Assembly: GCA_030604635.1 (NCBI GenBank)
Contig: JAUVVL010000004.1
Location: 1 to 33,845, forward strand
Direction: 5' to 3'
Source of the DNA: Desulfobacteraceae bacterium
GTDB lineage: Bacteria > Desulfobacterota > Desulfobacteria > Desulfobacterales > UBA11574
DNA: 33,845 nucleotides
The position numbers and the translations under genes were made by a program. Every line of letters begins with the position of its first letter. Position 1 is the stretch's first letter. The notes under the pieces are model-generated. The model searched no databases and was not told the origin of the DNA. It saw only the letters and a list, made by a program, of their open reading frames with translations. Shown here in pieces: positions 822-31,753 of the stretch.

Positions 822-1631
822 ATGAAAAAGACCCAAGAAACCCCGAGGAAAAAGGATAACACAAAACAGGCGGTATTGCACATGGCATTTGAACCTATAA
901 ATGGCATGATTATTAAGAACCGGTTTGTCCGATCAGCAACATGGGAGGGTATGGCAAAAGATGATGGAACGTGTACCAAAAGGCTGATCGATTTAATGGG
1001 TAAACTGGCCAAAGGAGGTGTTGGGTATCTTTTGAGTCAATTTCTTTCTCCCGCCTTTAATAAACGGCAGGATCAATATGGGGGAAGCATTGAAAATAGA
1101 GTCAATATCCTAATTGAGATTTTGAGCAATATAAGAGCGCGGGTCGGAAATAATTATCCTGTACTGCTTAAAATGAACTCACGTGATTTCCTGGAAGGAG
1201 GTCTTGAACTCGATGATTCATTAAAAGCAGGAGTCATCCTTAAAAATGCAGGTATAGACGCTATCGAACTAAGCGGCGGGACCATTGCATCAGGAAAGGA
1301 GGGGCCTGTAAGAACAGGAATTGTATCAGGGAAAAATGAAGCCTATTTCAAGGACGCAGCTTTTGCCTTTAAAGAAAAGATTGATCTTCCAATTATGCTT
1401 GTGGGTGGAATCAGGTCTTTTTCTCTTGCACAGCAGTTAGTTAACGATAATATTACGGATTATATATCCATGAGCAGGCCGTTTATCAGAGAGCCCGATT
1501 TGATAAAACGCCGGAAGGCCGGAAATCATAATCAAGCTGCCTGCCTCTCTGACAGCAAGTGCTTTATTCCAGCCATGAACGGCAAGGGGATATATTGCGT
1601 GGTGGAAAAAAAGAAGTCGAGAAAAAAATGA
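822..1631 (+). CDS. Old Yellow Enzyme-family NADH:flavin oxidoreductase with internal in-frame deletion
   Basis: MAFEPINGMIIKNRFVRSATWEGMA, YLLSQFLSPAFNKRQDQYGGSIENR, ILVGGIRS and DYISMSRPFIREP are OYE motifs; GGVG is joined directly to YLLSQFLSP. RBS AAAGGAGA. Confidence 0.85.
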   Translation: MKKTQETPRKKDNTKQAVLHMAFEPINGMIIKNRFVRSATWEGMAKDDGTCTKRLIDLMGKLAKGGVGYLLSQFLSPAFNKRQDQYGGSIENRVNILIEILSNIRARVGNNYPVLLKMNSRDFLEGGLELDDSLKAGVILKNAGIDAIELSGGTIASGKEGPVRTGIVSGKNEAYFKDAAFAFKEKIDLPIMLVGGIRSFSLAQQLVNDNITDYISMSRPFIREPDLIKRRKAGNHNQAACLSDSKCFIPAMNGKGIYCVVEKKKSRKK

Positions 1632-6825: not shown

Positions 6826-7704
6826 TTATAAAGCGAAATCTATACCGCTTTTAAATTCCATTTCTTTGGCCTTAATGTCAAGGTGCAAGGTCGCAACATG
6901 CTCAAGGGGAGGATATATAATACGCTCTGTTTTTCTTGTATCTATGGTTTTGATATATTTTTTGCATTTGTTGCACAGATCAACCCTGTATTCTTTTTCA
7001 TCTTCACTAAAGAAATAGTTGAGTGTCTTGGTGTCGGTATTGTCGCAAAACGGGCAATATAATCTTCTCGATGACCATTTATGCCAGCAGAAGGCGCACA
7101 GTAAAAAACGCTCCCCTTCTCCCTGAAACATAGAAAGCCCTGGCGGGCTTCCGCATATAGGGCAGTACCCCTTTCCCCATGGTTTATTCTTATCCAGATA
7201 GGCTGAAAGCTGCTCAGCGCCCAGCGATAAAGAGGGTTTTATGCTGTTGTAAACAATAAAGGCAAGGTCACCTTTTTTGATCGCGTGTTTCTTTGCGGTC
7301 TTTTCAAAAATGGAGTCGTCCTCACCGAGAAGAGCAAAAAACAGGGAATCAAGGTCAAATTCTTCTGCGTCAATGGCTTCCAGTATTGCCCGGGCAGAAG
7401 AGGCCATATCTCCACTTGATTCTTTTATTATGCTGCAAATTTTTATTAAAAGCATCTTAGATGCTTTAGCATCAATTCCAAATTCAGATATATTTACCAG
7501 AGGAAAGCCTTCGTTGGCCTTTATTAAAAGCATCTCGTCTGAAATTTGTATCGGGTCGATCTGTATCTTGTCTTTGGAATCTTCCTGGACAATAAAGATT
7601 TGTTTGTAAAAATCTAAAATAGCTCCATAAGCCGGCCTGAGCTCCTTTAATGACCATGCAGCCTTTGTTATCTGATCTTCGTTAAGTTGAATGTTATCTG
7701 CCAT
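6826..7704 (-). CDS. fdhE: Formate dehydrogenase accessory protein FdhE
   Basis: CPICGSPP...LCAFCWHKWSSRRLYCPFCDNTDTKTLNYF...YRVDLCNKCKKYIKTIDTR: FdhE rubredoxin-like CxxC motifs; next to fdhAB. Confidence 0.9.
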   Translation of the reverse strand: MADNIQLNEDQITKAAWSLKELRPAYGAILDFYKQIFIVQEDSKDKIQIDPIQISDEMLLIKANEGFPLVNISEFGIDAKASKMLLIKICSIIKESSGDMASSARAILEAIDAEEFDLDSLFFALLGEDDSIFEKTAKKHAIKKGDLAFIVYNSIKPSLSLGAEQLSAYLDKNKPWGKGYCPICGSPPGLSMFQGEGERFLLCAFCWHKWSSRRLYCPFCDNTDTKTLNYFFSEDEKEYRVDLCNKCKKYIKTIDTRKTERIIYPPLEHVATLHLDIKAKEMEFKSGIDFAL

Positions 7705-7934: not shown

Positions 7935-8660
7935 TTAAAGCAGACGTGAAGCAATATTCGTTAACGGGCGAATCATCTGTTTTAATGCCATCTGCCTTGT
8001 AATGTCAAAAACAGCATTTGAGGCCATAGCATCATCGCAGTACAGTTTCGGCTCATAAGCCACAAGATAAATAACACTTACATCATCGGCATCTATGAGC
8101 ATGGCCTTCGGGTATTTCTTTTTAGCAACTGCGAGCTGTTTTCCGGCAAGGGCAAGTATTTCATTGCGATCTCCGAAATTCATTGCCCCTGTCGGGCATG
8201 TCGCAACACATGCCGGAACCAGTCCGTTTACAACCCGGTCTATACACATGTCACACTTGGCAAGTGTGCCGTCAGGTCCTTTTCGCGGAATATTATACGG
8301 ACATGACTCGATGATCTCAGTGATTTCATCGGCATTTAGACGCTTTGTATTTGCAAAGATGATCGCCCCTGTTTTATCATCTCTATAAATGGCTTCTGGA
8401 TCGCCTGCCGTCTCAAGACACGTAGCCTCGATACAATGCCGGCACTGTTCCGGGAAGAAAAGCCAGTTTAACTTTCTATTAATAACCTCTTCACGCATTC
8501 TGACAAGTTTATACGTGTTAAATGAAAGATCAGCCGGATTCTCATAAGTTCCCCTGTTTATGGTCTTCTCTGCGGGGAGATCATGCCATTGCTTACAGGC
8601 TACCTGACATCCTCTGCAGGCCGTGCAACGAGTTGTATCTATTAAAAAAGATTTGCTCAT
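7935..8660 (-). CDS. fdhB: Formate dehydrogenase iron-sulfur (beta) subunit
   Basis: Ferredoxin repeats CTACRGCQVACKQWHDLPAE, CRHCIEATC, CPYNIPRKGPDGTLAKCDMCIDRV, ACVATCPTGAMNFGD. Confidence 0.92.
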   Translation of the reverse strand: MSKSFLIDTTRCTACRGCQVACKQWHDLPAEKTINRGTYENPADLSFNTYKLVRMREEVINRKLNWLFFPEQCRHCIEATCLETAGDPEAIYRDDKTGAIIFANTKRLNADEITEIIESCPYNIPRKGPDGTLAKCDMCIDRVVNGLVPACVATCPTGAMNFGDRNEILALAGKQLAVAKKKYPKAMLIDADDVSVIYLVAYEPKLYCDDAMASNAVFDITRQMALKQMIRPLTNIASRLL

Positions 8661-8676
8661 CTATGATCACCTCCTT

Positions 8677-11600
8677 TTATTTCTTGGTTACGTTGACCAT
8701 AAAGGCCTTGGTTTCAGGTATCCTGGTGTTGGGGTCACCGGTCGACGGGGTGAGCAAGTTAGCGCTCTCCTCGGCGCCGCTTTCAGGCCAGCGCCATCCA
8801 TAATGCCAGGGAATACCAACCTGGTGAACAGTGTTCCCGGCTATCTTAAACGGTTTAAAACGCTTTGTTACAATAGCCGTGCATTCCAGAGTTCCACGCG
8901 CAGATGAAACTATTACACGTTCACCGTTCTTGAAGCCCCTCAATTTCCCAAGCTCTTCGCTCATTTCCACAAAAACCTGGGGCTGAAGTTCAAGCAGCCA
9001 CGGCTGAGGACGTGTCATGAGCCCTGTCTGCCAGTGCTCTGATACACGGTATGTCGTACTGACAAACGGGAACCTTGGATCGCATGTCAAGTATGCATCA
9101 GCATCTGTTCCATATACAGGCGCTGTAGGATTCATCCTTTGTTTGTTCATGAGGTTCTTTTCAATAGGACATTCCAGCGGCTCGTAATGTTCCGGGAACG
9201 GACCATCAGCGCGGCCAGGACCGAATATCTGCCCATGCCCATGCTTTCTCATGATAAAAGGATGCTTTGCATCCTTTCTTTTTGTTCCGTCAGGATTCTC
9301 GAGAGGATACCAGCCACCGTCCGGAACGTCTCCGATCCACTTCTTTGAGACATACTTGCCGTTCTCGACATTTCCTGCGAACCTGATAACCCAGTCTTTC
9401 TTATCCCACGGCTGTCCTTTGGGATCAACAGAAGCGCGGTTGTAAATAATTCTCCGGTTTACAGGCCAGCACCATGCAAAGTTCGGATACAGACCGATAT
9501 TGTTCGGAGCATCTACTTTACTGCGCCTGGCTGACATGTTTCCCTTTTCCGTATAGCTATGACAGTAGAGCCAGTTTGCAGATGAAGTTGAACCGTCAGC
9601 CTGCAGCCATGCAAAGCTTGGCACAAGCGTGCCTTTCTTGCAAAGCTTGCCTTTAACCTTGACATCGCGTGTAAAGTAGCCGTTTATCTCTTTGGCTACC
9701 TTGTGAGCATCATATTCGCCATTTGTCTCATAATCCCACTTGAGGTTGAGTATAGGTTCCGGGAATACTCCGCCCTCTTTGTAAACCTCTTTGATTTTAT
9801 GACCGAGTTGCATAATAATATGGCCGTCAGAAAGGCTGTTTCCAAGCGGTTTTGGCCCCTGATAGCGCCACTGCATCCATCTGCCGCTGTTGGTAATGCT
9901 GCCTTCCTTTTCAACCGACACACATGCCGGAAGCATAAAAACCTCTGTCTTTATTGTGGAAGGATTCATTCCAGGCCCTTTCCAGAATGAGCCTGTTTCA
10001 TTGTCAAAAAGGTTGACATTGACCATCCAGTCAAGATTTTCCATGGCCTTGCGTGTCTTATTTGAATTTGCGCCACTACAGGCCGGATTCATACCCCAGG
10101 CAAAGAAACCCTTGATAGTACCCTTGTACATTTCATCAAAGAGGGTTAACCAGGAATAATCGGTCCCATCGTCCACCTTTGGCAGCCAGTCATACCCGAA
10201 ATCATTTGCTTTAGTGGCGTTTTCACCAAAGAAGGATTTAAGAAGGCTGACTGAATACTTTGGATAATTCTGCCACCAGTTTGCGGAAAGCGGATCATTG
10301 CTTTTTGGAGTCCACTTTTTGTTATAGGCGGCAAGGGACACATTCGAAGCCCTTGGAGTCTTAAGATAGCCGGGCCAGATGTGCCACAGCAGACAGTGAT
10401 CTGTAGAGCCCTGCACATTTGACTCGCCTCGCAGCGCATTGACACCACCGCCGGCAACGCCCATGTTGCCAAGAAGAAGCTGTATCATCGCCATTGTCCG
10501 GATATTCTGGACGCCTACTGTATGCTGGGTCCAGCCCATGGCATACATAACCGTGCCTGCTTTTCCCATGGCGCCGGTAGCGGCATAAGTCTTGTAAACC
10601 TTTACAAGATCAGATTCAGGAGTTCCGGTAATCTCGGAAACCAGCTTGGTATTATACCTGCTGAAATGTTTCTTCAGGAGCTTAAGAACGCAGCGGCTGT
10701 TCTTTAAAGAGCGATCCATTTTCGGGACACCCTTTGAATCCATATCAAAAGCCCACTTGCTCTTGTCATATTTCCTGTTTTTTGCTTCATAGCCGGAAAA
10801 CAGACCATTTCTAAATTTAAATGCCTTTCCAACAATAAACGGCGCATTGGTATAGTTTGCGACATACTCTTTATTGTATAGCTTTTTATCGAGTATGTAC
10901 TTGATCATACCTCCCAGAAAGGCGATATCCGTACCTGAACGAAGAGCTGTATAAATATCCGCCTTTGAGGATGTCCTTGTAAACCGGGGGTCAACACTGA
11001 TTAGCTTGGCTCCCTTTTCTTGTGCCATCTGAACATACTTAAATGATATGGGGTGATTTTCTGCAGCATTGCTGCCCATGATCAGTATGCAGTCACTGTT
11101 CTTAATGTCGATCCAGTGATTAGTCATTGCGCCACGTCCGAACGACTCTGCCAGAGCCGCAACAGTTGCGCTATGTCAGATACGAGCCTGATGTTCAACA
11201 TATACAAGCCCGAGAGCACGCACCATTGCCTGATAAATCCAGCACTCTTCATTGTCTATGGCCGCGCTTCCGACTGAAGCAATGGCTTTTGTCCGATTTA
11301 CCACCTGTCCTTTGGCATTTTTGTGTTCAAATGATGCCTCCCTTGTTGCTTTAACTCTTTTGGCAATTTCCGTCAGCGCCCAGTCCCATGAAACCTTTTC
11401 CCATTTTTTGGAATAGGGGGCTCTATACATCGGTTCAAGAAGACGGTTCTCATTCTCTGCCAGTTGTGACAGGGCAGCGCCTTTTGAACAAAGAGAGCCT
11501 CTGTTGATTACATGATCCGGATCACCTTCGATGTTGATGACACGACCGTCACCTTTCTTGTTGGTATGCACAATAGCCCCGCAACCTACTGCGCAATAGC

Positions 11601-11751
11601 AGCAGATTGTGGTGGTCTCCTTGGCATACTTGGTCTTGAGCATCTGCGCATGGGCTTTGATCGGTGTAAGATCGAATCCCAAACCGCTTACTGCAAGACC
11701 GGCAGCAAAGGCACCGGTAATCTGGATAAACTTCCTTCGAGTAACATTCAT
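8677..11751 (-). CDS. fdhA: Formate dehydrogenase alpha subunit, selenocysteine-containing, Tat-exported
   Basis: ORFs 11176-11751 and 8677-11127 are in one frame separated only by TGA at 11176-11178: ...YVEHQARI-U-HSATVAALAESFGRGAMTNHW...; Tat motif TRRKFIQITGAFAAG, CCYCAVGCG 4Fe-4S site. Total 1024 aa with Sec at residue 192. Confidence 0.95.
11135..11178 (-). promoter_or_regulatory. Sec UGA codon (11176-11178) and putative bacterial SECIS element
   Basis: TGACATAGCGCAACTGTTGCGGCTCTGGCAGAGTC: small stem TGC-GGCTCTG-GCA at the spacing recalled for the E. coli fdhF SECIS. Confidence 0.65.
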
Positions 11752-11808: not shown

Positions 11809-12834
11809 TCATCCACCAATTGCCGACATCCGGCCCGCAACCATGACAGGCTGATTGCAGACCACATTGTGGTCAAATGGTTTGTGACTCACAGCTCTCA
11901 GAAAAACATCGGCCAGCTCGCTGTCTAAACATCCTCTTCTAAGAGGGCCTTTAAGATCCTCCTGACGATCTGATAGAAGACATGCCCTCAGCTTTCCGCT
12001 TGCCGTTAATCTCAATCGATTACATTCATTGCAAAAATGTTTGCTTATAGCATGAATAAAACCTATTTCTCCCTTTGCGCCTTTAAATTTATAACGCTTA
12101 GCAGGGCCGTCATTAACCCCATTTTTAACAGGAATCAATTCTCCTAATGCATTGATACGTTTCTTTATTTCAGGTGCAAGCAATTGCTTGCCGATATTAT
12201 TAATATGAGGAGTTCCTATCGGCATGTACTCGATAAATCGAATATGAAATGGATAAGAAAAAGATAATCTAGCGATATCTGTTAATTCATCATCGTTGAT
12301 TCCATTTAGAGCGACCACATTAATCTTTATAGGATTAAAACCCATCTTTTGAGCTAATTCTATACCTTCCCAGACCTGATCAAACATGTCGTGCCCTGTT
12401 ATGTCTTTATATTTTTGTCTGTTCAATGTATCCATGCTGACATTGATTCTTTTTATACCGGCAGATCGTATCTTTTTTATATTATCCTTTAATAATACAC
12501 CGTTGGTTGTAAGGGATACATCTGAAAGTCCATCAATTTGTGTTAATTGGCCAAGAAAATCGTAAACACCTTTCCGGATAAGCGGTTCTCCGCCGGTAAT
12601 GCGGACCTTGGATATGCCAAGGCGTACCCCGATTCTGACAAGACGCAGGATTTCTTCATATCTTAAAATTTCTTTATGTGGAAGGTGCTGACGTGAATCA
12701 TTAGGAACGCAGTATATGCATCGCAGGTTGCAACGGTCGGTAATAGATATACGCAAATAGTTCAGGCATCGATTGTATTTGTCGATTAATTGTAACTCCG
12801 GCAGTTTTATTATCCTTTTATCGATATCTGCCAT
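11809..12834 (-). CDS. moaA: GTP 3',8-cyclase MoaA (molybdopterin biosynthesis)
   Basis: Radical SAM motif ISITDRCNLRCIYCVP, RITGGEPLIRKG, C-terminal CNECNRLRLTASGKLRACLLSD, terminal GG. Confidence 0.95.
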   Translation of the reverse strand: MADIDKRIIKLPELQLIDKYNRCLNYLRISITDRCNLRCIYCVPNDSRQHLPHKEILRYEEILRLVRIGVRLGISKVRITGGEPLIRKGVYDFLGQLTQIDGLSDVSLTTNGVLLKDNIKKIRSAGIKRINVSMDTLNRQKYKDITGHDMFDQVWEGIELAQKMGFNPIKINVVALNGINDDELTDIARLSFSYPFHIRFIEYMPIGTPHINNIGKQLLAPEIKKRINALGELIPVKNGVNDGPAKRYKFKGAKGEIGFIHAISKHFCNECNRLRLTASGKLRACLLSDRQEDLKGPLRRGCLDSELADVFLRAVSHKPFDHNVVCNQPVMVAGRMSAIGG

Positions 12835-12861
12835 TACCGTAACCTTTCAGACAAGCCCCTA

Positions 12862-12903
12862 AAAATAAAAAAACGCCTCCGCATCTCTTTGCCAAAGGCG
12901 TTA
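12862..12903 (-). terminator. Intrinsic terminator (riboswitch expression platform) upstream of moaA
   Basis: Minus strand: AACGCCTTTG-gcaaagagatg-CGGAGGCGTTTTTTTATTTTT. Confidence 0.8.
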
Positions 12904-12914
12904 TTTAAAGCATA

Positions 12915-13010
12915 TCGTGCCCTCAGTAACCCGGCAGTCATGGCCCTTTGGCTGTAAATCCGTAGTTTTGCGTCCCTGCCTTTCAGCAGATTTGCCTTTT
13001 TCTTTGTACG
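12915..13010 (-). ncRNA. GEMM-I type cyclic-dinucleotide riboswitch
   Basis: Minus strand: AAAGAAAAAGGCAAATCTGCTGAAAGGCAGGGACGCAAAACTACGGATTTACAGCCAAAGGGCCATGACTGCCGGGTTACTGAGGGC: GGCAAA, GAAA tetraloop, GGGACGCAAA and GCCGGGTTAC(C/T)GA receptor match the GEMM-I consensus. Confidence 0.85.
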
Positions 13011-13062
13011 TCGAATTTTAATAATTTCAGGGCTCCTGACCTCGCGTAATTTCAAATGCAAC

Positions 13063-13194
13063 TTATTCCTCCTTGAAGACCAACGTCATCCGGGTGCCGG
13101 GGTAGACATAACACTCCTCATTCATGACTTCACATAGTTGTTTGAGTACACGATTTGCTCGGGGTGTAGACATCGTATGAAACTTGACGGTCAT
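13063..13194 (-). CDS. 43-aa hypothetical protein
   Basis: MTVKFHTMSTPRANRVLKQLCEVMNEECYVYPGTRMTLVFKEE with GGAA-type RBS; immediately upstream of the riboswitch. Confidence 0.45.
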   Translation of the reverse strand: MTVKFHTMSTPRANRVLKQLCEVMNEECYVYPGTRMTLVFKEE

Positions 13195-13367
13195 AATTCC
13201 CTGTTCCTCAGAAGGTATTATATCTGCCGGTTGCTGAAAAACACTTCTCAAAAGCTTCTTCTGCTTTTTTGGATATTTTTCATTTTATCCCCCCCTTCAT
13301 AACGTTGTGTCATTCGAGTGCCCTTTTTTTACTTTGTCAGAATAGAGAGGACAATATAAAGATCTTT

Positions 13368-13835
13368 TCACTTTCTCCGCTTGTTTTTGGGAAACAGTTT
13401 AAATGCTGCTGCCGGAGATTCCACCACTTTCTGGATTTTTTCCTGCATATCCTTTTTTTCGTCGGCGTCTTTTTTTTCCCATGCCAATTCAATCTTGGTT
13501 ACAAGTTCATCAATTTCACACGGTTTGGTCAGATAATCGTAGGCACCCAACTTAATCGCCTCAAGTGCTGTATCAACGGAGCCGTGACCGGTCAGAATAA
13601 GGGTTTCGGTAAAGAGCCCCAACTTTTTCATCTCTTTGAGCGTCATAATGCCGTCCATACCCGGCATTTTCAGGTCAAGAACCACCACATCAAAGCTGTC
13701 TTGCTCAAGCATACGTATGGCATTGTCTCCACTATCAACCACCGTAACACGGTATCCCCTGGTTTCCAGGAGTTTTGACACGTTGTCGGTAAAGACAACT
13801 TCATCATCTACCAGTAAAATTTTATAACCTAGCAT
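13368..13835 (-). CDS. Single-domain (REC) response regulator
   Basis: MLGYKILLVDDEVVFTDNVSK...VVVLDLKMPGMDG...ILTGHGS...DYLTKPCE; the longer ORF 13368-14207 overlaps the kinase gene and is not needed. Confidence 0.9.
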   Translation of the reverse strand: MLGYKILLVDDEVVFTDNVSKLLETRGYRVTVVDSGDNAIRMLEQDSFDVVVLDLKMPGMDGIMTLKEMKKLGLFTETLILTGHGSVDTALEAIKLGAYDYLTKPCEIDELVTKIELAWEKKDADEKKDMQEKIQKVVESPAAAFKLFPKNKRRK

Positions 13836-13875
13836 TTGAATTTGCTTGCCTCCTTTCCGAATATGGATATAGAGT

Positions 13876-15648
13876 TTATCTTTGATAGTTGCTTTCCAAA
13901 AGATCCGGAGGTGGACTGTATGGGAGAAAGAAATTGAATTCCGTCCCCTTGTCAAGTTCACTCCGAACCGTAATGTTTCCACCCAATTGTTTAATGGTAC
14001 TGTAAACGATGGATAGGCCCAACCCCGTTCCTTTGCCCACCGGTTTGGTCGTAAAAAACGGATCAAATATCTTTTCCAGATTTTCCGGGGGGATTCCCTG
14101 ACCGGTATCAGCGAATTCGATCTGAACCCCTTGATTTTGATCATCAGAACAGGTCGTGATACGAACCGCACCGTAAAGCTTCCCGCCGTCATGCGCGTCG
14201 ATTGCATTGGTAATCATGTTCAAAAACACCTGTTGAAGCTGGGAGGGATCAGAAAGAATCGGCGGCAGGTTTTCCTCAAAATCGGAAATAAATTTAACGC
14301 CGCTTGTTCTGGCCTCTCTTTCCGTCAGATCAATCAATTCTTTTATGAATGCATTGATGTCAATGGTTTCAATCACCGATGTCGTCCGGCGAGAAAAGCG
14401 GAGCAGGTTATACGTAATGTGTTTACAGCGCTTTGCCTGTATATCGATCTGTGTCAAAGAGTCCAACAATTGGTTTTTAAACTCCTCATCCAGAGCCGGG
14501 CTTCGCTCAACCAAATCGAGCAAGATCTGCTTTTCGGTTACAATGATGGCCATGGGATTGTTGATTTCATGGGCCACGCCGGCCGAAAGCTCTCCGATGG
14601 AAGCGAGTTTGCCGGCCTGCATGAGCTGTTTATCCAACCAATCGGATTCTATATCACGCTTTTTAATGATCGCAATCATATGTCTTGTAATCAGAATTGA
14701 GACTACAAGAATGGTTAAAGCACTCAGGTGAAGAAAAATTAGTGTCGCATAGTTGGCATGGTTGACTTTATTAAATGCCTCTGAATAATTTTGTTTTACC
14801 ACCAGTAACCAGCGGGTGGGGTATTCAAGCCAGGTCTGGCCCGCGATCTGACGCGGGAGCTTATGATTGCGGTTATCCGTGCTTTTTTCTAAAAAGCGGA
14901 TTTTAATACCTTCATGGAAAGTTCCGACGGGATAGGAGGCTTTCTCCATAATCTTACCGCTGAACCGCGAGCTGGTCTGAAAAATCCTATCCTTATTTAA
15001 AAGATATACTTCGCCGGTTTTGCCGATTCTGACATTTTCCACAAGGGAACGAAAAACTTCGGTGTCAATAGTGGCCCTTAAGATCCATTTTTCCCCTTTT
15101 CCAAAGCGGACAACTGCTATAATAAAATGCGGAACCCTGCGAAACCCCATAAACATATCGCTTATGTAAATGCCTTTCTTCATGACTTCTTTAAACCAGA
15201 AGGCCTGGGAATAGTTTTTGTCCATCAGATCGTAGGGGCCGATGTATACTAAATGTTTACCACTGGCATCGATAACCCCCAGATCCATATATGATCCATC
15301 TTCCCGGTTTATAATTTCGAAAATATCATTAAGATTCGATGCTTTTCTCAGGTAGTCCTTGGAGTGGGACTGGGCGATGATTTGGAGTTTGGAAGTGCGT
15401 TCTTTCAAAAATAACTCGATAATTTTTCGATGATGATTTACCTGGGTTCGAAAGGAATTCATCATAGCGGATTTTGCAAAGCGGGTATAATGAAGATTGA
15501 TTCCCCAACCTACCAAAAGAAGCGGAACAAGCGAACATACTATTGTTAACACTACGAATCTGCGGAATAATCTGGAGTAGTAAATTTTCTTCCGTGGCTT
15601 CCCGTTTTGTTCATTAGCGCTGCCGTTTACGGCCGTTCGTTCTTCCAT
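13876..15648 (-). CDS. Cache-domain sensor histidine kinase
   Basis: Two TM segments, periplasmic Cache-like domain ([25 protein letters not shown]), H-box [17 protein letters not shown]-box, [22 protein letters not shown]. Confidence 0.92.
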
Positions 15649-15943: not shown

Positions 15944-16996
15944 TTAGCGAAGTATTTTCCAGTATTTTTTCTGGATTCCAATCACTTTTTTTAGCGCAGA
16001 GAACCGGGGGACGCCGTGTAATTTTAGCTTGTCTGTCTTATCTCTGCGCAGCGTCGGTACATTGCACAGTTCCTGAAGGACACGCAGGCCGCATTCCCTG
16101 ATTCCCTTAAGGCTGTACCCCCCTTCCATGATAAACACGATGCGACCATTGCAGACGTTTTCCGCCGTTTCGAGCAGAAGACGGGTTAAAAGAGCATAGC
16201 CCTCGGGTGAAACCTGCATTGCGCCCAGGCGATCATGCATGTAGAGATCGAAACCGCAGGATACCAGAATTATTTCCGGCTGATATTCCCGTGCGACGGG
16301 ATTCAGTAAAAAATGGATGATCCGGGCAAAATCCATATCGCCGTGTCCTTTTCCCAGGGGAATATTAATGGTAAACCCTTCCCCTTTTTTGCGACCCACT
16401 TCACCCAAACTTCCGGTTCCCGGAAAAGCCGGAAATCCATGCATGGAAACAAATAGTACCGCATCGGTATCATAAAAGGCAGTCTGGGTTCCATTGCCGT
16501 GGTGTGCATCGATGTCGACAATCATGACCCTTTCAACAGAATGGCATTCCTTTAAGTATCTGGCCCCCAGGGCGATGTTATTAAAAAGGCAGAACCCCAT
16601 GGCCCTGTCAGGTTCTGCATGATGGCCGGGCGGCCTTAAGGGAACGAAGCCCCGGTCGGCCCTTCCTTTCCAGATTTCATCGAGAAGGCTGAATACGCTG
16701 CCCACAGCCAGGCGAGCGACATCATAAGACTTTTCAGTTGTCTGTGTATCCAGGTCAAACGCAAAAAGCGGCATTCCTGAAGTTCGTGCCACGCGTTCAA
16801 TATAATCGGGCGTGTGCACCATGGCAAGCTCCTGGGGAGAAGCGAGTCTTGGTGCTACCTCCGTCCACTTGCCCGCAAGAGAAGGCTCCTCCAGCACAGA
16901 AAGGATCGCTTGCAATCGTTTGGGATTTTCCAAATGGAAAATCTGTTCCAGGTGATGTGCAAACCGTTCGTCCTTAATGACAAGCAGTGGCTGCAT
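15944..16996 (-). CDS. Histone deacetylase/acetoin utilization-family (class II HDAC-like) deacetylase
   Basis: RPPGHHAEPDRAMGFCLFNNIALGA, MIVDIDAHHGNGTQ, SCGFDLYMHD and EGGYSL: metal ligands present. Confidence 0.92.
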   Translation of the reverse strand: MQPLLVIKDERFAHHLEQIFHLENPKRLQAILSVLEEPSLAGKWTEVAPRLASPQELAMVHTPDYIERVARTSGMPLFAFDLDTQTTEKSYDVARLAVGSVFSLLDEIWKGRADRGFVPLRPPGHHAEPDRAMGFCLFNNIALGARYLKECHSVERVMIVDIDAHHGNGTQTAFYDTDAVLFVSMHGFPAFPGTGSLGEVGRKKGEGFTINIPLGKGHGDMDFARIIHFLLNPVAREYQPEIILVSCGFDLYMHDRLGAMQVSPEGYALLTRLLLETAENVCNGRIVFIMEGGYSLKGIRECGLRVLQELCNVPTLRRDKTDKLKLHGVPRFSALKKVIGIQKKYWKILR

Positions 16997-18197: not shown

Positions 18198-19871
18198 TTA
18201 AATATGCTCGAAATCGGAAGATTCAATCCGCAAAGGAAGCTCGACGATGAAAGATGCTCCCTTTCCCGATTCGCTCCTGGCAGAGATCGTGCCTCCCAGT
18301 TTTTCAAGAATATCAAGACAGATCGGAAGCCCCAAACCCGTTCCCTCCTGCTTGCTGGTAAAAAGAGGTTCGAAAATCTTTTCCATGTTTTCTTCAGGGA
18401 TACCCGGACCATCATCGGTTATTGTTACGGTAACGCCGTTCGGGCGGGCGCGGGTTGCAAATATGATTTCACCGTCCTTTCCAATCGCGGTGACGGCATT
18501 TAAAACGATATTCTGAAAAACCTGGTGCAGTTTGGAAGGGTCGCTACGGACAGAGGGCAGATGATCCTGGTAATCCCGTTTTACCTTAATCCTTTTAAAA
18601 TCGAGTTCTTTGGTCAGTATTTCGATTAAATCATTCAACACATTATTTACATTTATTTCCATGATCATCGGTTCGCCGTGTCTGATAAATCCGAGGAATT
18701 TATCAATCGATTTGCGGCCGCGCGATGCCTGAGACTTGATTTGTTCCAGGCTTTTTGCGATTTCGCTTAAATTTCCTTTCAGGGTCAAATCCTCCATCCA
18801 CATGCGGGCCACATCGATATTGGCCAGGGTATCCTTGATATCGCGAAAGAAACCGTAAGAGAGCTCCATTGATGATGCCAAATAGCTGGTACAGCGAAGC
18901 TGCCTATCTAAAAACCGGATACTTTGCCGCTTGGCCTCCAGGCGTTCAACCAGATGATTGGTGCAGAGAAGCACGGTAAAAACAATCAAGATAGCCATCA
19001 AAATGAAGACAAAAACGCCGACGGCTCGCATGCGGTGCAGCGACTTTAAGGCCTCACTGCGGTCGATCTGGACGACACATAGCCAGAAAACGTTTTCGAG
19101 CCATATCGAGGCACGGATGCGTCCTTTGGATTCATTCAGCATAACCCCTTTAAAGCGTTTAAGATCTTTAAACTCGGATTGCCCCATCAACCGGCCCGCA
19201 TACCGGGGGCTGGTTTGAAATTTTCCGTTCCCGCTAACCAGAAACACGTCCATGTCCTTTGTATTGATCACTTCCGAGACCAGGTTGTCAAAAAAAACGG
19301 TGTCAACGGTGGCGCGTATGATCCAGACGCCTTCGCTGCCGGTCTGTTTAACGGCGATAATAAAGTGAGGCGCATTTCGGAAACCCATGAACACATCGCT
19401 GACGTATACGTCACTCGCCATAACGGCCTGGAACCATGCCACATTCTGGTAGTTTTTTGAAAGCAAATCATAAGGTCCCGTATAGGCAAGATGCCGGCCA
19501 TCATCATCAATGATACCCAGATCCTTAAAGCACGGCAGTTGCCTTTGCATGGACTGAAAAAGGGCTTCAAGGGTTCCCGGCCGGATCAGAGACGACAGGT
19601 CCCTGTTTTCCGATAGCTGTTTAAGATCCATGACACGTTCCGCCAGAAACTGATCTATGTCCTTCTTGTGGTAGAGCACTTCCGTGCGCAGGAGTTCCAT
19701 GGTTTTTTGCTTTAGAGCGGACGTCGCATAGTAGTACATTCCCCCGCCGATTAAAAGCAGCGGGATCAAAGCGGCGGCCAGAAGCGCCACCACAATGCTG
19801 TTCCACAAACGGCGGAAATAGGGGAAATCTTTTTTTCGAAAACGACGCGGCGTATGGTAGATTTCCGGCAT
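18198..19871 (-). CDS. Cache-domain histidine kinase-like protein with degenerate H-box
   Basis: Paralogous Cache domain (DLGIIDDDGRHLAYTGPYDLLSKNY); ATPase motifs HQVFQNIVLNAVTAI, DDGPGIPEE, EGTGLGLPI intact; H-box region reads LASSMELSYGFFRDIKDTLANI. Confidence 0.88.
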   Translation of the reverse strand: MPEIYHTPRRFRKKDFPYFRRLWNSIVVALLAAALIPLLLIGGGMYYYATSALKQKTMELLRTEVLYHKKDIDQFLAERVMDLKQLSENRDLSSLIRPGTLEALFQSMQRQLPCFKDLGIIDDDGRHLAYTGPYDLLSKNYQNVAWFQAVMASDVYVSDVFMGFRNAPHFIIAVKQTGSEGVWIIRATVDTVFFDNLVSEVINTKDMDVFLVSGNGKFQTSPRYAGRLMGQSEFKDLKRFKGVMLNESKGRIRASIWLENVFWLCVVQIDRSEALKSLHRMRAVGVFVFILMAILIVFTVLLCTNHLVERLEAKRQSIRFLDRQLRCTSYLASSMELSYGFFRDIKDTLANIDVARMWMEDLTLKGNLSEIAKSLEQIKSQASRGRKSIDKFLGFIRHGEPMIMEINVNNVLNDLIEILTKELDFKRIKVKRDYQDHLPSVRSDPSKLHQVFQNIVLNAVTAIGKDGEIIFATRARPNGVTVTITDDGPGIPEENMEKIFEPLFTSKQEGTGLGLPICLDILEKLGGTISARSESGKGASFIVELPLRIESSDFEHI

Positions 19872-19909
19872 GGCCTGTAAACCTTTCCAGCTTCCTATTT
19901 TACTTTATG

Positions 19910-20020
19910 TTCCACATACTGGAAAATATCCTGGAGCCTGATAAACCGGTCAAGAAAAAGAGTAATGGTCTTTGATCTTCATTTCCACATACTGGAAAAT
20001 ATCCTGGAGCCTGATAAACC
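19910..20020. repeat. 38 bp direct repeat (19910-19947 and 19983-20020) at the 3' end of the REC-CBS gene
   Basis: TTCCACATACTGGAAAATATCCTGGAGCCTGATAAACC present twice. Confidence 0.95.
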
Positions 20021-20816
20021 CTTTCACGGTCTCGCCCTCTACAACCGGCATGCACCGGACGTTGTTTTGGATCATCCGCCGGGCGACCTGGATGAGGTTC
20101 TCCTCGGGGTTGGTGGTTATGGGGTGGTCTGGCTGCATGACTTCGCTTAAGGTTTTGGGGGGGAGCCATTGGGGATTTTGGATCAGGTCGGACCAGACAA
20201 TGGAACGTTCGGGATGTTTTTTTTGGGCGGCATCCAGCAGATCTCGCCGGGTGACAATACCCTGAAATCGGTCGCCTGCATCCAGAACATACAGTTTTTC
20301 CTTGACCGGCATTCCCGCGTCCCTGATAAACACTTTCAGAGCTTTGACAAGCGGGTCCTGTGTTTCCAGCCGAATGAACAACGGCAAAGTGATTTCTTTA
20401 ACCAGGTTCCGGGGCCAGAGTACCGGGCGGCGTTTGATGTGCTCGACTTCGCAGGCTTCCATTATTTTTTCGGTCAGATCCTCGATATCGCAGGGCTTCA
20501 TTAAATAATCAAGGGCGCCCTCGCGAATGGCCTCCATTCCGGATTCGAGAGTGGCATAGGCGGTCAGCATGATGACCTGGGTGTGCGGAACCAGTTTTTT
20601 GATCTCAGCAAGGGTGGTTAGGCCGTTCATCCCCGGCATTTTGACATCGAGAACCACCACGTCAAAACGCTCTTTTTCCTTAACGGCATCCAGAGCCTGG
20701 AAACCGTCCAGGGCCGTGGACACCTGAAATCCTCTAAACCTTAACAGTCTGGCCATATTCAATATAAACTGTTCTTCGTCATCTACAAGCAGGACCCTTA
20801 TATTATTATTGCTCAT
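19950..20816 (-). CDS. Response regulator with REC domain and C-terminal CBS-domain pair
   Basis: VLLVDDEEQF...VVVLDVKMPGMNG...LMKPCDIEDL; then ...YVLDAGDRFQGIVTRRDLLDA... and MQPDHPITTNPEENLIQVARRMIQNNVRCMPVVEGETVKGFIRLQDIF. Confidence 0.9.
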   Translation of the reverse strand: MSNNNIRVLLVDDEEQFILNMARLLRFRGFQVSTALDGFQALDAVKEKERFDVVVLDVKMPGMNGLTTLAEIKKLVPHTQVIMLTAYATLESGMEAIREGALDYLMKPCDIEDLTEKIMEACEVEHIKRRPVLWPRNLVKEITLPLFIRLETQDPLVKALKVFIRDAGMPVKEKLYVLDAGDRFQGIVTRRDLLDAAQKKHPERSIVWSDLIQNPQWLPPKTLSEVMQPDHPITTNPEENLIQVARRMIQNNVRCMPVVEGETVKGFIRLQDIFQYVEMKIKDHYSFS

Positions 20817-25349: not shown

Positions 25350-26762
25350 TTAAACTTCCTTTTCGAATTTGTTCCTGAAATCCACGGCATCAATATCCGT
25401 TTCTTTCATCAGCCGGTGAAGGTATTGCCGTTGAATCCCGCCGATTTCGGCAGCCCTGCTGACGTTCCCGTTGCTTTTTTTCAGAAGTGTTTGAATATAC
25501 TCCCGATAAAATTTCCGGATCATCTTCTCTTTGGCGGTCTTGAAGTCCAGCCCGTTTACATCCTCATTGAAATCCGGATATAAAGGCTCGCGTTCATTAT
25601 CCAGGTATAGATCTCTTTTTTCCAGCGTATCGGTTCTGCAAAAGATTACCGCCCGCTCGATGATATTTTCCAACTCTCTGACATTGCCGGGAAAGTCCTG
25701 TGAAAGAATGGTCTGCATGGCCTCCGGCGAGATCGTACGGATATCTTTCTGATTAGCGCGGGCAAATTTTTTAAGAAAATGATAACTTAGAAGCGGAATG
25801 TCCTTTTTCCGTTCGTTGAGGGGCGGCAGTTCAATATGAATCACATTCAGACGATAATAAAGATCTTCCCTGAAACGTTTTTCTTTGATGGCCGTCTTGA
25901 GATTTTGATTTGTGGCGGCAATAAAACGCAGATCCGTCTTTTCAGTGACCAGACTCCCGACCGCTTTATGCTCGCCCTCCTGGAGGAGTCGCAGAATTTT
26001 CATCTGCATGTGAAGGCTGAGGTCGCCAATTTCATCCAGAAAAAGGGTTCCTCCATGAGCCTCTTCAACCAATCCCTTTTTATCTTTCCACGCACCGGTA
26101 AAGGCACCTTTCACATGGCCAAAGAGCTCGCTTTCAATGACCTGTTCAGGGATGGCCGCACAATTTACGGTGACCATTTTTTTTGAAGACCTCAAACTGT
26201 TCTCATGGATGGCTTTGGCGATCAATTCCTTTCCGGTCCCGCTGTGGCCGGTAATCAATACGGTAGCCATGGTTGGCGCCACCTGTTTGATACGTTGAGA
26301 TATCTCCTTCAACTCCGGTGTTGAGCCGACCAGGCCTGAAAGATTCGTTTTTCCAGCCAAAGCTTGGCGAAGGGTCTTATTCTCTTTGACGATCTCCTGC
26401 CACTTCATGGCCTTGTCAATGGTAAGCAGGATTCGTTCGCGCCGGAAGGGTTTGGTTATATAATCATAAGCACCTTTTTGAATTGCTTCCACAGCCGTTT
26501 CAATGGTGGCATAGGCCGTCATAATCACGACAGAAATATCCGGGTTGATTTTCGTGACTTGCTCGAGAAGTTTGATGCCGTCCACTTTCGGCATCTTTAA
26601 ATCGGTAATTACCAGATCAAAATGACGCTCCCTTAACAATTCAAGGGCCTTGAAAGCACTCGCCTCCGTGACCGGTTCATGCTCCGTGCCATCGGAAATA
26701 ATTCTTCCCAAAAGAACCAGCATGTCTTTCTCATCATCAATGATTAATATTCTGCCAGACAC
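25350..26762 (-). CDS. NtrC-family sigma-54-dependent response regulator (REC-AAA+-Fis)
   Basis: ILIIDDEKDMLVLLG...VITDLKMPKVDG; GHSGTGKELIAKAIH; GAFTGAWKDKKG; GTLFLDEIGDLSLHMQ; C-terminal HTH NVSRAAEIGGIQRQYLHRLMK. Confidence 0.95.
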   Translation of the reverse strand: MSGRILIIDDEKDMLVLLGRIISDGTEHEPVTEASAFKALELLRERHFDLVITDLKMPKVDGIKLLEQVTKINPDISVVIMTAYATIETAVEAIQKGAYDYITKPFRRERILLTIDKAMKWQEIVKENKTLRQALAGKTNLSGLVGSTPELKEISQRIKQVAPTMATVLITGHSGTGKELIAKAIHENSLRSSKKMVTVNCAAIPEQVIESELFGHVKGAFTGAWKDKKGLVEEAHGGTLFLDEIGDLSLHMQMKILRLLQEGEHKAVGSLVTEKTDLRFIAATNQNLKTAIKEKRFREDLYYRLNVIHIELPPLNERKKDIPLLSYHFLKKFARANQKDIRTISPEAMQTILSQDFPGNVRELENIIERAVIFCRTDTLEKRDLYLDNEREPLYPDFNEDVNGLDFKTAKEKMIRKFYREYIQTLLKKSNGNVSRAAEIGGIQRQYLHRLMKETDIDAVDFRNKFEKEV

Positions 26763-26770
26763 CTATCCTC

Positions 26771-28912
26771 CTATGTTGTGGTGAGAAGCTTTACGGTAAA
26801 AACGGTTCCGCCGGGTTTGTTCCGGTGGTTACCCCGCTGGCTGACGCACTCAATAGTTCCCCCATATTTGGTGATAATACCGTAGGTTACGAATAATCCC
26901 AAACCGGTCCCCTCTCCTTCGCCTTTGGTGGTGAAAAACGGTTCAAAGATATGGTCCATATCTTCCTTTTTAATCCCGATTCCGTTGTCCTCAAATTGAA
27001 CAACAACCTTGCGGCTACGTGTGCTCAGGTTTGAGCTTATCGCCAGGGTTCCTCCGGCCGGCATCGCTGCCGAGGCATTATTGATCAAGTTTAAGAAAAC
27101 CTGCTGAAGCTGGCGAAAATCCCCCTTAACCAATGGAATGTTATCCGCCAAGGATAAAAACAACGCGATGTCCTTTATTTCTAGAGTATGTTTCACCACT
27201 TGAATTATTTCCTTAAGGCATAGGTTCAAATCAGAGTACTCGGATTTGTCCTCACCCAGCCGGGCAAAGCTAAGGAGGTTTTCTACCACCTGTTTGCAAA
27301 TATAACCCTGTCTTTCAATGGTTTTCAGATCATTATATTCCTGGGAGCCTTTTTCTTTTTCTCGGAGCAAAAGATCGCAAAAACCCAAAATGACGCCCAT
27401 AGGGTTGTTGATTTCATGGGCCACGCCGGCCGCCAGTGTTCCCAGGGAAGCCAGCTTTTCCGTACTGATCAATTGCCTTTCCAGGCTCTTACTCTCAGTT
27501 ATGTCCCGGGCAATACACAGGACGGCGCTAACAGTTCCGGATTCATTTTTTAGCGGCATGAAATTTGCGCTGATCCATATCCGGTGTTCTCCCGTATATA
27601 TTTCAAATTCATCGCGGACACTTTTCCCGAGTTTATAAACCAGTTCAATCAATTTAAGCTGGTTTTCTGCAACCTCCTCAGAAAATAAGGCGGACAGGTC
27701 CTTGCCCAGGAATTCTTCACAATGGCCTCCGAAAAAATTGGCGGTAAAGCTGTTCATGGATTGGAACTTACCCTCTGTATCGACAGTAAAAATAAAGTCC
27801 TCGGCGCTTTCCACTAAAGAGCGGTACCTTTCTTCCGACCTTTTGAGTTCCTCGGTTCTTCTATTCACCTTCCATTCCAGGCGTCGAGACCATCGCATTT
27901 CTATAGACAGGACGCCCGCAGCGCCTAATACAATAATAATAACGGCCAATCCCTGGAGCAGGAGCAGTATCAGGTAGCCCCGATGAACAGCCTCTTCAAT
28001 TTCGGAAACAGGAGCCACTATTGCCGCCGACCATTTTTGAGGCGGATTGTCGGAAATGACGATGGGACAATAAGCGATCAGCTTTTTAATTTCCCCGGTA
28101 ATTCCTCGATGCCAGCCCGAAATATACCAACCCGTGCCTTCCCGTCCTTTAAGCATTTTTTCTTTCTGAATAAAATTGATTTTCCCGTAGGAAATTCGGC
28201 TGTCTCTTTTTTCACGGGCCTTGAAGCAGCTCTTGCCGATAAAAACTGTTTCCGGATGATAAAGAAAGTAACCCGACCCATCAATGATCCAGGCGTAGCC
28301 CGTCTTGCCCGACCGGATTTTCTTCAAAAAAGGTGTCAAAAACCAGGAAACATTTACATTAAAAATAAGCAGCCTCGGGCAATCCCCCGCCAGAGGCACG
28401 GCCAGTACCAGCCTTATTTCAGAAGGCTTTATGCGGGGTCGAGATGTCCAAACATTTTTTCTGTCCAGGGACTCGGGCCGGGGCAGAGCTTCCAATCGTT
28501 CAAGCTGAATATCCTTTTCATACCAGGGTCTATGAGGTGTAAAGATATAGGTCTTTCGGCTCTTTATGTCAATGATTTCAATTTTCCGGACGCCACTTTG
28601 CAGGACACGGATAAGATTCTTTTGGATACCCTCGTACCGCGCCTCCGGGTCAAAAGGTCCTTGAGAAATGTCTTTGCCTGCCAGCAAAATCTCCCTTGTT
28701 AAAAAATTCAGCTCTCTTTCAATCAAACTCGAGACATTACGGGCAACAACCAATTGTTCTTGACTAAACTGATCCACTACAATTCTTCTCATTTCTCCGC
28801 CGGACCACAAGGCAAATCCAGCGCATGCTGTCAGTAGAATAGCGGCCGCTATGGACACAGCAGCAACGATATTTTTATTTATCTTAGGACGTTTTGTTTT
28901 ATCCATACTCAT
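26771..28912 (-). CDS. Sensor histidine kinase (periplasmic sensor - PAS - HisKA - HATPase)
   Basis: Two TM segments; PAS ESAEDFIFTVDTEGKFQSMNSFTANFFG; H-box [47 protein letters not shown]. Confidence 0.93.
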   Translation of the reverse strand: MSMDKTKRPKINKNIVAAVSIAAAILLTACAGFALWSGGEMRRIVVDQFSQEQLVVARNVSSLIERELNFLTREILLAGKDISQGPFDPEARYEGIQKNLIRVLQSGVRKIEIIDIKSRKTYIFTPHRPWYEKDIQLERLEALPRPESLDRKNVWTSRPRIKPSEIRLVLAVPLAGDCPRLLIFNVNVSWFLTPFLKKIRSGKTGYAWIIDGSGYFLYHPETVFIGKSCFKAREKRDSRISYGKINFIQKEKMLKGREGTGWYISGWHRGITGEIKKLIAYCPIVISDNPPQKWSAAIVAPVSEIEEAVHRGYLILLLLQGLAVIIIVLGAAGVLSIEMRWSRRLEWKVNRRTEELKRSEERYRSLVESAEDFIFTVDTEGKFQSMNSFTANFFGGHCEEFLGKDLSALFSEEVAENQLKLIELVYKLGKSVRDEFEIYTGEHRIWISANFMPLKNESGTVSAVLCIARDITESKSLERQLISTEKLASLGTLAAGVAHEINNPMGVILGFCDLLLREKEKGSQEYNDLKTIERQGYICKQVVENLLSFARLGEDKSEYSDLNLCLKEIIQVVKHTLEIKDIALFLSLADNIPLVKGDFRQLQQVFLNLINNASAAMPAGGTLAISSNLSTRSRKVVVQFEDNGIGIKKEDMDHIFEPFFTTKGEGEGTGLGLFVTYGIITKYGGTIECVSQRGNHRNKPGGTVFTVKLLTTT

Positions 28913-29247
28913 TTGAGAAGATTAGCATTCAGGATCAGGGCCTGGTCAATGAGCCGGTTAAGGCTCAAAGGTTTCATCTCCATCCTGGGTTGGCGAGAGA
29001 AAGCCAACAGGTTGGAAACCATCCGGCTGATCCGCCGGATTTCTGTTTCCATGAGATCGAGATACTTGCTGATTTGTTCACCCTCTTCCCGAAGAACGGG
29101 TCCTTCTTTGAAAATCCGTTTGATCAGTATGGTCAGGTTTAATATTCCGGCAATGGGGTTGTTGATTTCATGAACCACCTCTGCGGCGAGCTTGCCCAGA
29201 GAGGCCATCTTGTCCTGGTGAAGCAGTTTTTTACGAGTTTCTTTCAA
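28909..29247 (-). CDS. HisKA-domain-only protein (truncated histidine kinase)
   Basis: KMASLGKLAAEVVHEINNPIAGILNL...LLAFSRQPRMEMKPLSLNRLIDQAL; no HATPase domain; ATGA overlap with the following kinase gene; begins with TTG or an internal ATG. Confidence 0.7.
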   Translation of the reverse strand: MKETRKKLLHQDKMASLGKLAAEVVHEINNPIAGILNLTILIKRIFKEGPVLREEGEQISKYLDLMETEIRRISRMVSNLLAFSRQPRMEMKPLSLNRLIDQALILNANLLK

Positions 29248-29374
29248 CTTTCGGGTTCACTCCTCTACCTTTCAGGGGACTCCGCCGTGGCGGATTGTCG
29301 GCCTGATTTGGCCTGCTGGGAACTTCAAGCATAAGCGGTTGGTGCTTTCCATCTGCAATGTGATTATTGTGCTA

Positions 29375-29824
29375 TCAGTCCTGGTCAAAGACCCTGCCGG
29401 GATAGCGAACCAGTTCCTTTATTTTAGCGTCCGTAATTTTTTTATCATGAGTCGATTTTTTCTCAAATGCGGATACCATTTTTTGTAAAAGGTCTTCAAA
29501 TTTAATCGGTTTCAGACAATAATCAAAAGCACCCAACCTCATCCCCTCAATGCTTGTTTCCACGGAAGCATGCCCTGTAAGGAGAATAACCTCGACTAAG
29601 GGCTGAATTTTCTTGATCTCCCGCAACGCTTCTATACCGTCTATCCCCCCCGGCATTTTGATATCCAGTATAATTACATCAAATAATTGTTCTTTTAAAA
29701 GGGCGATGGCTTCTTCTCCGCTTGCAACACCGGCAGCATTTAATTTTCTCTTTTGCAGTCTATTTACAATTGTATCTAAAAAATCGACTTCATCATCAAC
29801 GACCAAAATTCTGAACATATCCAT
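29375..29824 (-). CDS. Single-domain (REC) response regulator
   Basis: FRILVVDDEVDFLDTIVNRL...VIILDIKMPGGIDGIEAL...LLTGHASVETS...DYCLKPIKFEDLL. Confidence 0.92.
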   Translation of the reverse strand: MDMFRILVVDDEVDFLDTIVNRLQKRKLNAAGVASGEEAIALLKEQLFDVIILDIKMPGGIDGIEALREIKKIQPLVEVILLTGHASVETSIEGMRLGAFDYCLKPIKFEDLLQKMVSAFEKKSTHDKKITDAKIKELVRYPGRVFDQD

Positions 29825-29904
29825 TTTAATCTCCTTATCAATTTGTTTTTACGCTTATATTTTTTTCTAAATATATCGTATAGGAATTTCATTTTTAACC
29901 CTCA

Positions 29905-29945
29905 CCCAAACCCTCCATCTTCAAGTTGGAGGGCAGGGTGGGCGT
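29905..29945. repeat. REP-like hairpin between HK and RR genes
   Basis: ACCCTCACCCAAACCCTCCATCTTCAAGTTGGAGGGCAGGGTGGG: CCCTCCA/TGGAGGG stem. Confidence 0.5.
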
Positions 29946-30079
29946 GTTAGCTTGAGCCAAAATCTCCCCCCTTTAGAGAAAGATTGTACCGCTGTTTCCC
30001 CCTTTTGTAAAGAGGGACTTAAAAGCAATGGTTCTTAAGTAAATTGCAATGACTAATGGCTGGTGGCCTGAGTTAGGTG

Positions 30080-31753
30080 TTACTTTCTTTCCGGGGTTAC
30101 AATAGGAAGATTGACGTTAAAAACAGTCCCTTCTAATTTATTGCTCTCAAATGTTATGTTTCCACCTAATTTTTCGATAATACTATAGCTTACTGACAAA
30201 CCAAGACCGGTTCCTTTGCCTGTCTCCTTGGTCGTGAAAAAAGGGTCAAAGACCTTTTTTCGGTGTTCTTCAGGGATGCCCCGGCCGTTATCCTTTATAC
30301 TTATTACAATCTGGGAATCATCTTGCTGTGATTTTACCTCGATCAGTCCATCCTTTTGGATTGCATCAATGGCATTGTTTATAAGATTTAAAAAAACCTG
30401 TTGAAGCTGGGATTGATCACTTGCGATAATCGGCAGATCAGGATGCAGGTCTTTTTGTATGGCTATGTTGTTTGTCTGGGCATAATTTTGCAAAAGTTCT
30501 ATGGTCTGATTTAAAACATTATTAATATCAACATCATCTAAACGATGCTCCATTCTTCTGGCAAATCCGAGCATATTATGGGTTGTCTTGCGAGCCCTTT
30601 CCACATGTTCTTCAATTTTATCTATGGATTTTTCATACTCTTTAAAATTTTCACTCTCCTGAAATTCTTCATCAAACAACAAATCTCTCATCCATCCTGC
30701 TTTTTCGCCGATTATTGCAAGGGGATTGTTGATTTCATGGGCAATGCCGGCAGCCATCTTACCCAAGGCTGCCATTTTATCAGACTGGATCAATTGTTCA
30801 TTAAGCTCGCTAATTCCCCTGTCAGCTTCTTCTAACTTCCTGAAGATGATACGCATCGCAAAAAAGGTGGTGATAATTATTGCCAGACAACCAAAAACGA
30901 TAATTATGATTTCCGTATTTCTGGTTGTCAACAGGCCGCCTTTCTCATCTGCGACGTCCTGGGTGATCACCAGGAGCCACTGATTATTTTTCAACCAGGT
31001 CCCGGCAACATGTTTTGTTTGGCCGTTAGCCTCAATTTTTTCAGCTACTGTAGTCCCTTCACCAAAAAGTGTTAGGGTCAGATTCGATTTGTCCAATATC
31101 TTGCCGGAAAAACGAGGGGCTGTCTGATAAACTCCGTTTTTATTGATGATATAGGCATCACCTGACCTTCCGGTCTGGGCGGTCCTGACAAGTTTGTTGA
31201 ATATGTCTGAATCGACTGTTGCCCTCAAAATCCAGCTCTGGCCGTTGCTATACCCTCGAACAGCAATAATAAAATGCGGTAATTGACGGTAACCCATGTA
31301 AACATCACTGATATGTTTGCCCTTACTTATAACCTCGCCAAACCAGGCCTGGCGAAAATAATTTAATCCTTTAAGATTATAAGGTCCTGCATATGCCAGG
31401 TGTTGACCGGCGCTGTCGATAACTCCTAAGTCGATCAGGCCTTCCGTGCGCCGGCTTATCACCTTAAATATTCTGGAGAGATTCTCCTGTTGTTTTATGT
31501 AATCAAAAGTATGGGTATCCACAATGGTTGCAAGTATGGCGGTTCGCTCCCTTAAAAAAACTTCCATTGCATCAGCCTGGGACCTTGCCCGGTATTTTAT
31601 CTGATCTTCAATCTTTTCTTCATATGTTCTGGCGAAACGATAATATATCGTCTCGCCAAGAAAGACCAGGGGAATAATGGCAACAAGCAGGATGATAATA
31701 ATGATCGTCCTGTGAAGATTTATATAAATTGTTTTTCTTTTATAAAGTCCCAT
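30080..31753 (-). CDS. Cache-domain sensor histidine kinase
   Basis: [35 protein letters not shown]-box [44 protein letters not shown]. Confidence 0.93.

Follow-up and report, generated by a model that had tools for sequence, protein, structure and literature searches.

GEMM-I riboswitches are known mainly from genes for the cell envelope, motility, attachment, and extracellular electron transfer. Cd1 of Clostridioides difficile is an OFF switch in which the terminator and the aptamer coexist, unlike the ON switch pilM (PMC9262584). In the GEMM-Ib RNAs of Geobacter, including the pilM and pgcA leaders, an A is found at position 20, and avoidance of the terminator, which excludes the aptamer, is the rule (PMC6456294, PMC9262584). 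An A20G exchange in a Geobacter GEMM-Ib RNA switches selectivity from cGAMP to c-di-GMP (PMC6456294); this position is a selectivity factor and no hard filter (PMC9262584), and the omcST-operon riboswitch responds to both cyclic dinucleotides (PMC6456294). A structured leader is also found before molybdenum-cofactor genes, including moaA, in the form of the Moco riboswitch (Moco RNA motif, PMC2408646).

We analyzed a leader upstream of moaA in a contig of 33,845 nucleotides (hereafter the window) from a metagenome-assembled genome (MAG) assigned to Desulfobacteraceae. With Cd1 it shares the aptamer consensus and structure, the G/A/C contacts, the tetraloop with its receptor strand, and a downstream terminator that can coexist with the aptamer, and a putative antiterminator is predicted that would engage the C92 strand as in Cd1; however, a canonical P1 is predicted in the moaA leader, whereas Cd1 was reported without P1 (PMC9262584), and motility or envelope genes, the targets of Cd1 and other GEMM-I RNAs, are replaced by moaA and formate dehydrogenase genes. 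With the Geobacter GEMM-Ib leaders it shares the clan, the fold, and the link between cyclic dinucleotides and electron metabolism, but it has G instead of A at position 20, and its terminator does not overlap the aptamer. The Moco riboswitch resembles it in its place before moaA, but the RNAs are unrelated, and no gathering-level match to the Moco motif (RF01055) was obtained in the window or in the 15 loci scanned. We propose, with fair confidence, that the moaA leader is a c-di-GMP-I riboswitch acting on transcription termination, and that it most likely works as an OFF switch.

The moaA leader and the genes behind it

The covariance-model search gave a sole gathering-level Rfam match in the window, to RF01051 (c-di-GMP-I / GEMM-I), which covered model positions 1-87 of 87 with 71.9 bits (E 2e-12) against a cut-off of 35 (table 1). 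The aptamer contains GGCAAA, a GAAA tetraloop on P2, GGGACGCAAA, and the GCCGGGTTACTGA strand, and the GAAA loop and the conserved P3 receptor strand align to the RF01051 consensus as a GNRA tetraloop with its receptor. A first-pass annotation had named the GEMM-I class and these landmarks and had called for the RF01051 search; both the class and the landmarks were borne out, and by sequence and structure the leader is a genuine member of the family. The open reading frame at 12834-13061, which the same annotation had called spurious, overlaps the whole aptamer, and stops break its frame in the homologous leaders; therefore, it most likely is spurious.

Table 1. Coordinates of features in the window (contact residues mapped onto Vc2 numbering by hand)
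Feature	Position	Strand	Basis or remark
c-di-GMP-I aptamer	12922..13006	-	RF01051 full model; conserved in L033, L086, L116
Ligand-contact equivalents	G20 = 12996, A47 = 12969, C92 = 12926	-	alignment to model and 29 other GEMM-I RNAs
P1 5' strand CGUAC	13006..13010	-	pairs with 12916-12920
P3 segment GCCAAAGG, exact 8-nt complement of terminator arm CCUUUGGC (12891-12898)	12945..12952	-	nascent-length folding; window-specific alternative antiterminator
Predicted antiterminator 5' strand UUACUGAGGGC (aptamer 3' strand with C92 equivalent and part of P1)	12919..12929	-	complementary to 12889-12899
Intrinsic terminator hairpin with U7 tract; putative switching strand: 5' arm, 12889-12899	12867..12902	-	folding; conserved in four leaders
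moaA, GTP 3',8-cyclase	11809..12834	-	TIGR02666, 356 bits against cut-off 284
fdhA, formate dehydrogenase-N-type alpha subunit	8677..11751	-	formate dehydrogenase-N alpha signature
fdhB, Fe-S subunit resembling formate dehydrogenase beta	7935..8660	-	profile match below equivalog cut-off
fdhE-like accessory gene	6826..7704	-	follows terminator-like hairpin at 7906-7881(-)
Transposase C-terminal remnant, directly upstream of the leader at the site of the relatives' TTGACA promoter	13063..13257	-	PF21804, E 2e-13; upstream alignment

Downstream of the aptamer, the sequence AACGCCTTTGGCA-AAGAGA-TGCGGAGGCGTT, followed by T7, folds into a hairpin of -13.6 kcal/mol (z about -2 for 12868-12900). A generic terminator scanner did not detect this hairpin in the moaA leader, probably because its stem is interrupted. 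The GC-rich hairpin and the T7 run described earlier are thus present, but the distance from the end of T7 to the moaA ATG (12834) is 32 nt and not 28 nt.

The MoaA equivalog match and the start at 12834 support moaA as the target, as first annotated. The fdhA gene is a single frame broken only by an in-frame TGA (Sec, U192) at 11176-11178, and it follows moaA after 57 nt in the window. The moaA-fdhA order was found with gaps of 46-57 nt in eight loci, the window included, and it occurs in loci with and without the riboswitch. A scan of the moaA-fdhA interval gave neither promoter- nor terminator-like sites; this result, together with the adjacency of the two genes, agrees with the earlier suggestion that control probably extends to the Sec-fdhAB genes by co-transcription. 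Behind fdhB, at 7906-7881(-), there is a terminator-like hairpin, although such scans yield about as many hairpins in shuffled sequences; thus, the riboswitch transcript may be moaA-fdhAB, with the fdhE-like gene possibly outside it.

Conservation of the leader and history of the window copy

The closest MoaA proteins (84-93%) were found in Ca. Desulfaltia, Eth-SRB1, and other Desulfobacterales MAGs. A GEMM-I aptamer (70-78 bits) is located at the same place in three further MAG species with orthologous moaA genes, namely CSMAG_410 (L033), CSMAG_2504 (L086), and a third MAG (G106, locus L116), and the same terminator is present in all three leaders. Four other full-length close relatives have no such aptamer before moaA, and the leaders read from four riboswitch-lacking relatives were unrelated. 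Across the four moaA leaders, the aptamer and terminator helices were 94% paired versus 32-42% in slid registers, and four base pairs were changed on both sides as compensatory changes; these results therefore point to selection acting on the RNA structure. Because the MoaA tree was poorly resolved and required two changes for riboswitch presence, gain and loss of the riboswitch were indistinguishable.

The MAG was placed in one family (f1), but the genes of the window contig side with the family of Ca. Desulfaltia and Eth-SRB1 (f23): MoaA is 92% identical to f23 proteins versus at most 71% to those of f1, FdhA 92% versus at most 73%, and a histone-deacetylase (HDAC)-like protein 70% to two f23 genomes versus about 40% or less elsewhere. 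One exchanger gene on the contig has no close relative in either family, and the MAG also holds a second MoaA, 48% identical, on contig C169. Either mis-binning or horizontal transfer would explain f23-like genes in an f1 MAG, and one or the other is probable for this contig, as judged from these similarities. The HDAC-family gene itself lies at 15944-16996(-) (PF00850, E 3e-92); of the 24 other genomes searched, only 2 have a 70% relative. Clustered two-component systems (dCache histidine kinases, response regulators, and one sigma-54 activator) occupy 13368-15648, 18198-20816, and 25350-31753 on the same strand.

Upstream of their leaders, L033, L086, and L116 have CTTGACAGGAG in common, followed after 17-18 nt by a -10-like element. 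This conserved TTGACA promoter is not intact in the window, where a transposase remnant adjoins the leader; the window copy may be expressed less strongly or from a different promoter. Scanning the minus strand for sigma-70-type promoters revealed no such site. In addition, the window P1 3' strand, GCACG (12916-12920), makes one A-C mismatch, whereas CGUAC/GUACG is perfect in all three relatives. The window contig could thus carry a relic, a leader that was kept but is no longer properly driven or folded. However, high scores persist for the aptamer and for the whole leader (162.7 bits), the P1 change preserves the antiterminator pair (U-G to C-G), and the promoter scan covered the sigma-70 type only. 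We consider a relic unlikely.

Predicted direction of switching and ligand

The preferred reading, an OFF switch acting on termination, was examined from the layout of the leader. P1 extends to 12916 and the terminator starts 14 nt further on, at 12902, so that no nucleotides are shared; in four of four moaA leaders the terminator overlaps neither the aptamer nor P1. Therefore, the aptamer and the terminator are compatible with each other. The 5' arm of the terminator is complementary to the strand with the C92 equivalent, with 42 of 44 cells paired in the four homologues versus 39-59% in slid registers. By nearest-neighbour energies at nascent lengths, the antiterminator was favoured in L033, L086, and L116 before the terminator 3' arm was made, and the terminator won thereafter. 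In the window, the conserved antiterminator was not the favoured fold, and the terminator arm was predicted to pair with P3 instead. Since both pairings break the aptamer, a ligand-bound aptamer would free the terminator, as expected of an OFF switch.

We propose the following mechanism. With c-di-GMP bound, the aptamer would retain its own 3' strand and P3, which would leave the terminator 5' arm free for its 3' arm, and transcription would stop before moaA. Without ligand, the 5' arm, GCCUU(U/C)GG, would pair with the C92-equivalent strand of the aptamer (in the window also with P3), termination would be delayed or avoided, and moaA and the Sec formate dehydrogenase genes would be transcribed. 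High c-di-GMP would then mean less pyranopterin cofactor and less formate dehydrogenase.

The antiterminator pairing was also assessed in a set of 20 leaders from the order. These were selected for their resemblance to R2, our whole-leader model, a choice that favours the terminator arm. The helices between the aptamer strand and the terminator arm averaged 5.95 bp versus 4.17 bp in letter-shuffled sequences (0 of 500 shuffles), but they were no longer than those obtained in these leaders with arms swapped between them, and antiterminator covariation was not above shuffles with either 4 or 20 sequences. Thus, the OFF direction is predicted from layout and complementarity, not from covariation. 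The aptamer 5' strand AAAGGC, considered as another partner of the terminator arm, was uninformative, being fixed by the aptamer consensus.

The same aptamer and ligand could also form an ON switch: the bound ligand would block the terminator and increase moaA-fdh expression, in the manner of the Geobacter cGAMP riboswitches. This arrangement is the rule among the GEMM-Ib RNAs of that genus, and the other GEMM-I RNA of the same MAG (L002) looks built that way. However, in none of the four moaA leaders does the terminator overlap the aptamer or P1, which leaves a bound aptamer no obvious way to block terminator formation, and the terminator arm and the aptamer are complementary. We therefore regard an ON switch as quite improbable and retain the OFF switch as the working model.

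With regard to the ligand, the discriminating residue is the first G of GGCAAA (12996; Rfam position 11). It is G in four of four moaA leaders, and the A at position 20 of the cGAMP class GEMM-Ib is found in none of them. The first-pass annotation, which had read this residue as G (c-di-GMP type), was therefore correct on this point for the window and its three relatives. From the G at this position, we infer that c-di-GMP is the likely ligand, and GGDEF domains were encoded in six of six genomes checked. Binding of 3',3'-cGAMP, or of both cyclic dinucleotides, in place of c-di-GMP alone would have a precedent in the dual-sensing omcST-operon riboswitch, would be compatible with a residue that influences selectivity without filtering strictly, and would match the occurrence of a cGAMP-signature GEMM-I (L002) in the same MAG; nevertheless, cGAMP-specific relatives have A where all four moaA leaders have G, and we rate such binding as very unlikely. 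Chance similarity, or membership of another RNA class, is scarcely credible, given a full-length match far over the cut-off and a leader that is independently conserved in four species, compensatory changes included.

The only other GEMM-I RNA of the MAG, L002, is located at 1500-1580(-) of contig C155 (RF03167, 65.8 bits). It carries the cGAMP signature, A at the G20 position, and its terminator overlaps the 3' strand of the aptamer, an ON-type layout. A retron-like reverse transcriptase and an HTH gene (PADLOC RT_VI 1.5e-78, HTH_VI 2.5e-20) lie about 70 nt upstream of this RNA.

Occurrence of GEMM-I leaders at moaA and their possible meaning

In a search of 390 genomes of the order with R2, scores were 157-168 bits for the four moaA leaders and about 100 or less for all other GEMM-I leaders, and 262 of the 390 genomes had some match. 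Outside the four, no R2 match overlapped a MoaA locus among the matches and loci listed. Most of the next 16 leaders stand before genes for M23-peptidase-like, ComEA-like, membrane, or secreted proteins, as judged by eye from translations. Our own aptamer model, applied to 100 moaA loci, matched L033 and L086 only among those listed; the L116 and window aptamers were found by Rfam scans. In 60 relatives, no GEMM-I RNA adjoined moaA among the matches listed, a survey that rare cases could escape. In the three relatives with the riboswitch, no MoaA-level match was obtained other than the moaA gene behind the riboswitch, and further radical-SAM matches reached about 50 versus about 700 bits; these MAGs are 93-97% complete, and a second moaA copy could be missed.

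A search of the open-access literature, with most subscription papers and supplements outside its scope, returned no report of a GEMM or c-di-GMP riboswitch with moaA, molybdopterin, or molybdenum cofactor; the moaA leader thus belongs to a known riboswitch class and has an apparently unreported target. For a lineage of the Ca. Desulfaltia/Eth-SRB1 family, we tentatively infer a role in which c-di-GMP would directly gate the whole supply of Mo/W pyranopterin cofactor via its only moaA, and with it the Sec formate dehydrogenase, so that formate-linked electron flow would track the motile/sessile decision; we hold this to be possible, if somewhat doubtful. If true, a lifestyle signal would be tied directly to the first step of Mo/W cofactor synthesis and to formate metabolism in anaerobic relatives of sulfate reducers. 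Because the moaA leader is short and conserved, the proposed link between c-di-GMP and cofactor or formate is testable in vitro without the uncultured host.

In family f23, two other GEMM-I RNAs (L180 and L184) precede homologous open reading frames of 424-444 aa that share the sequence MQI(T/S)GSYSNYLT.
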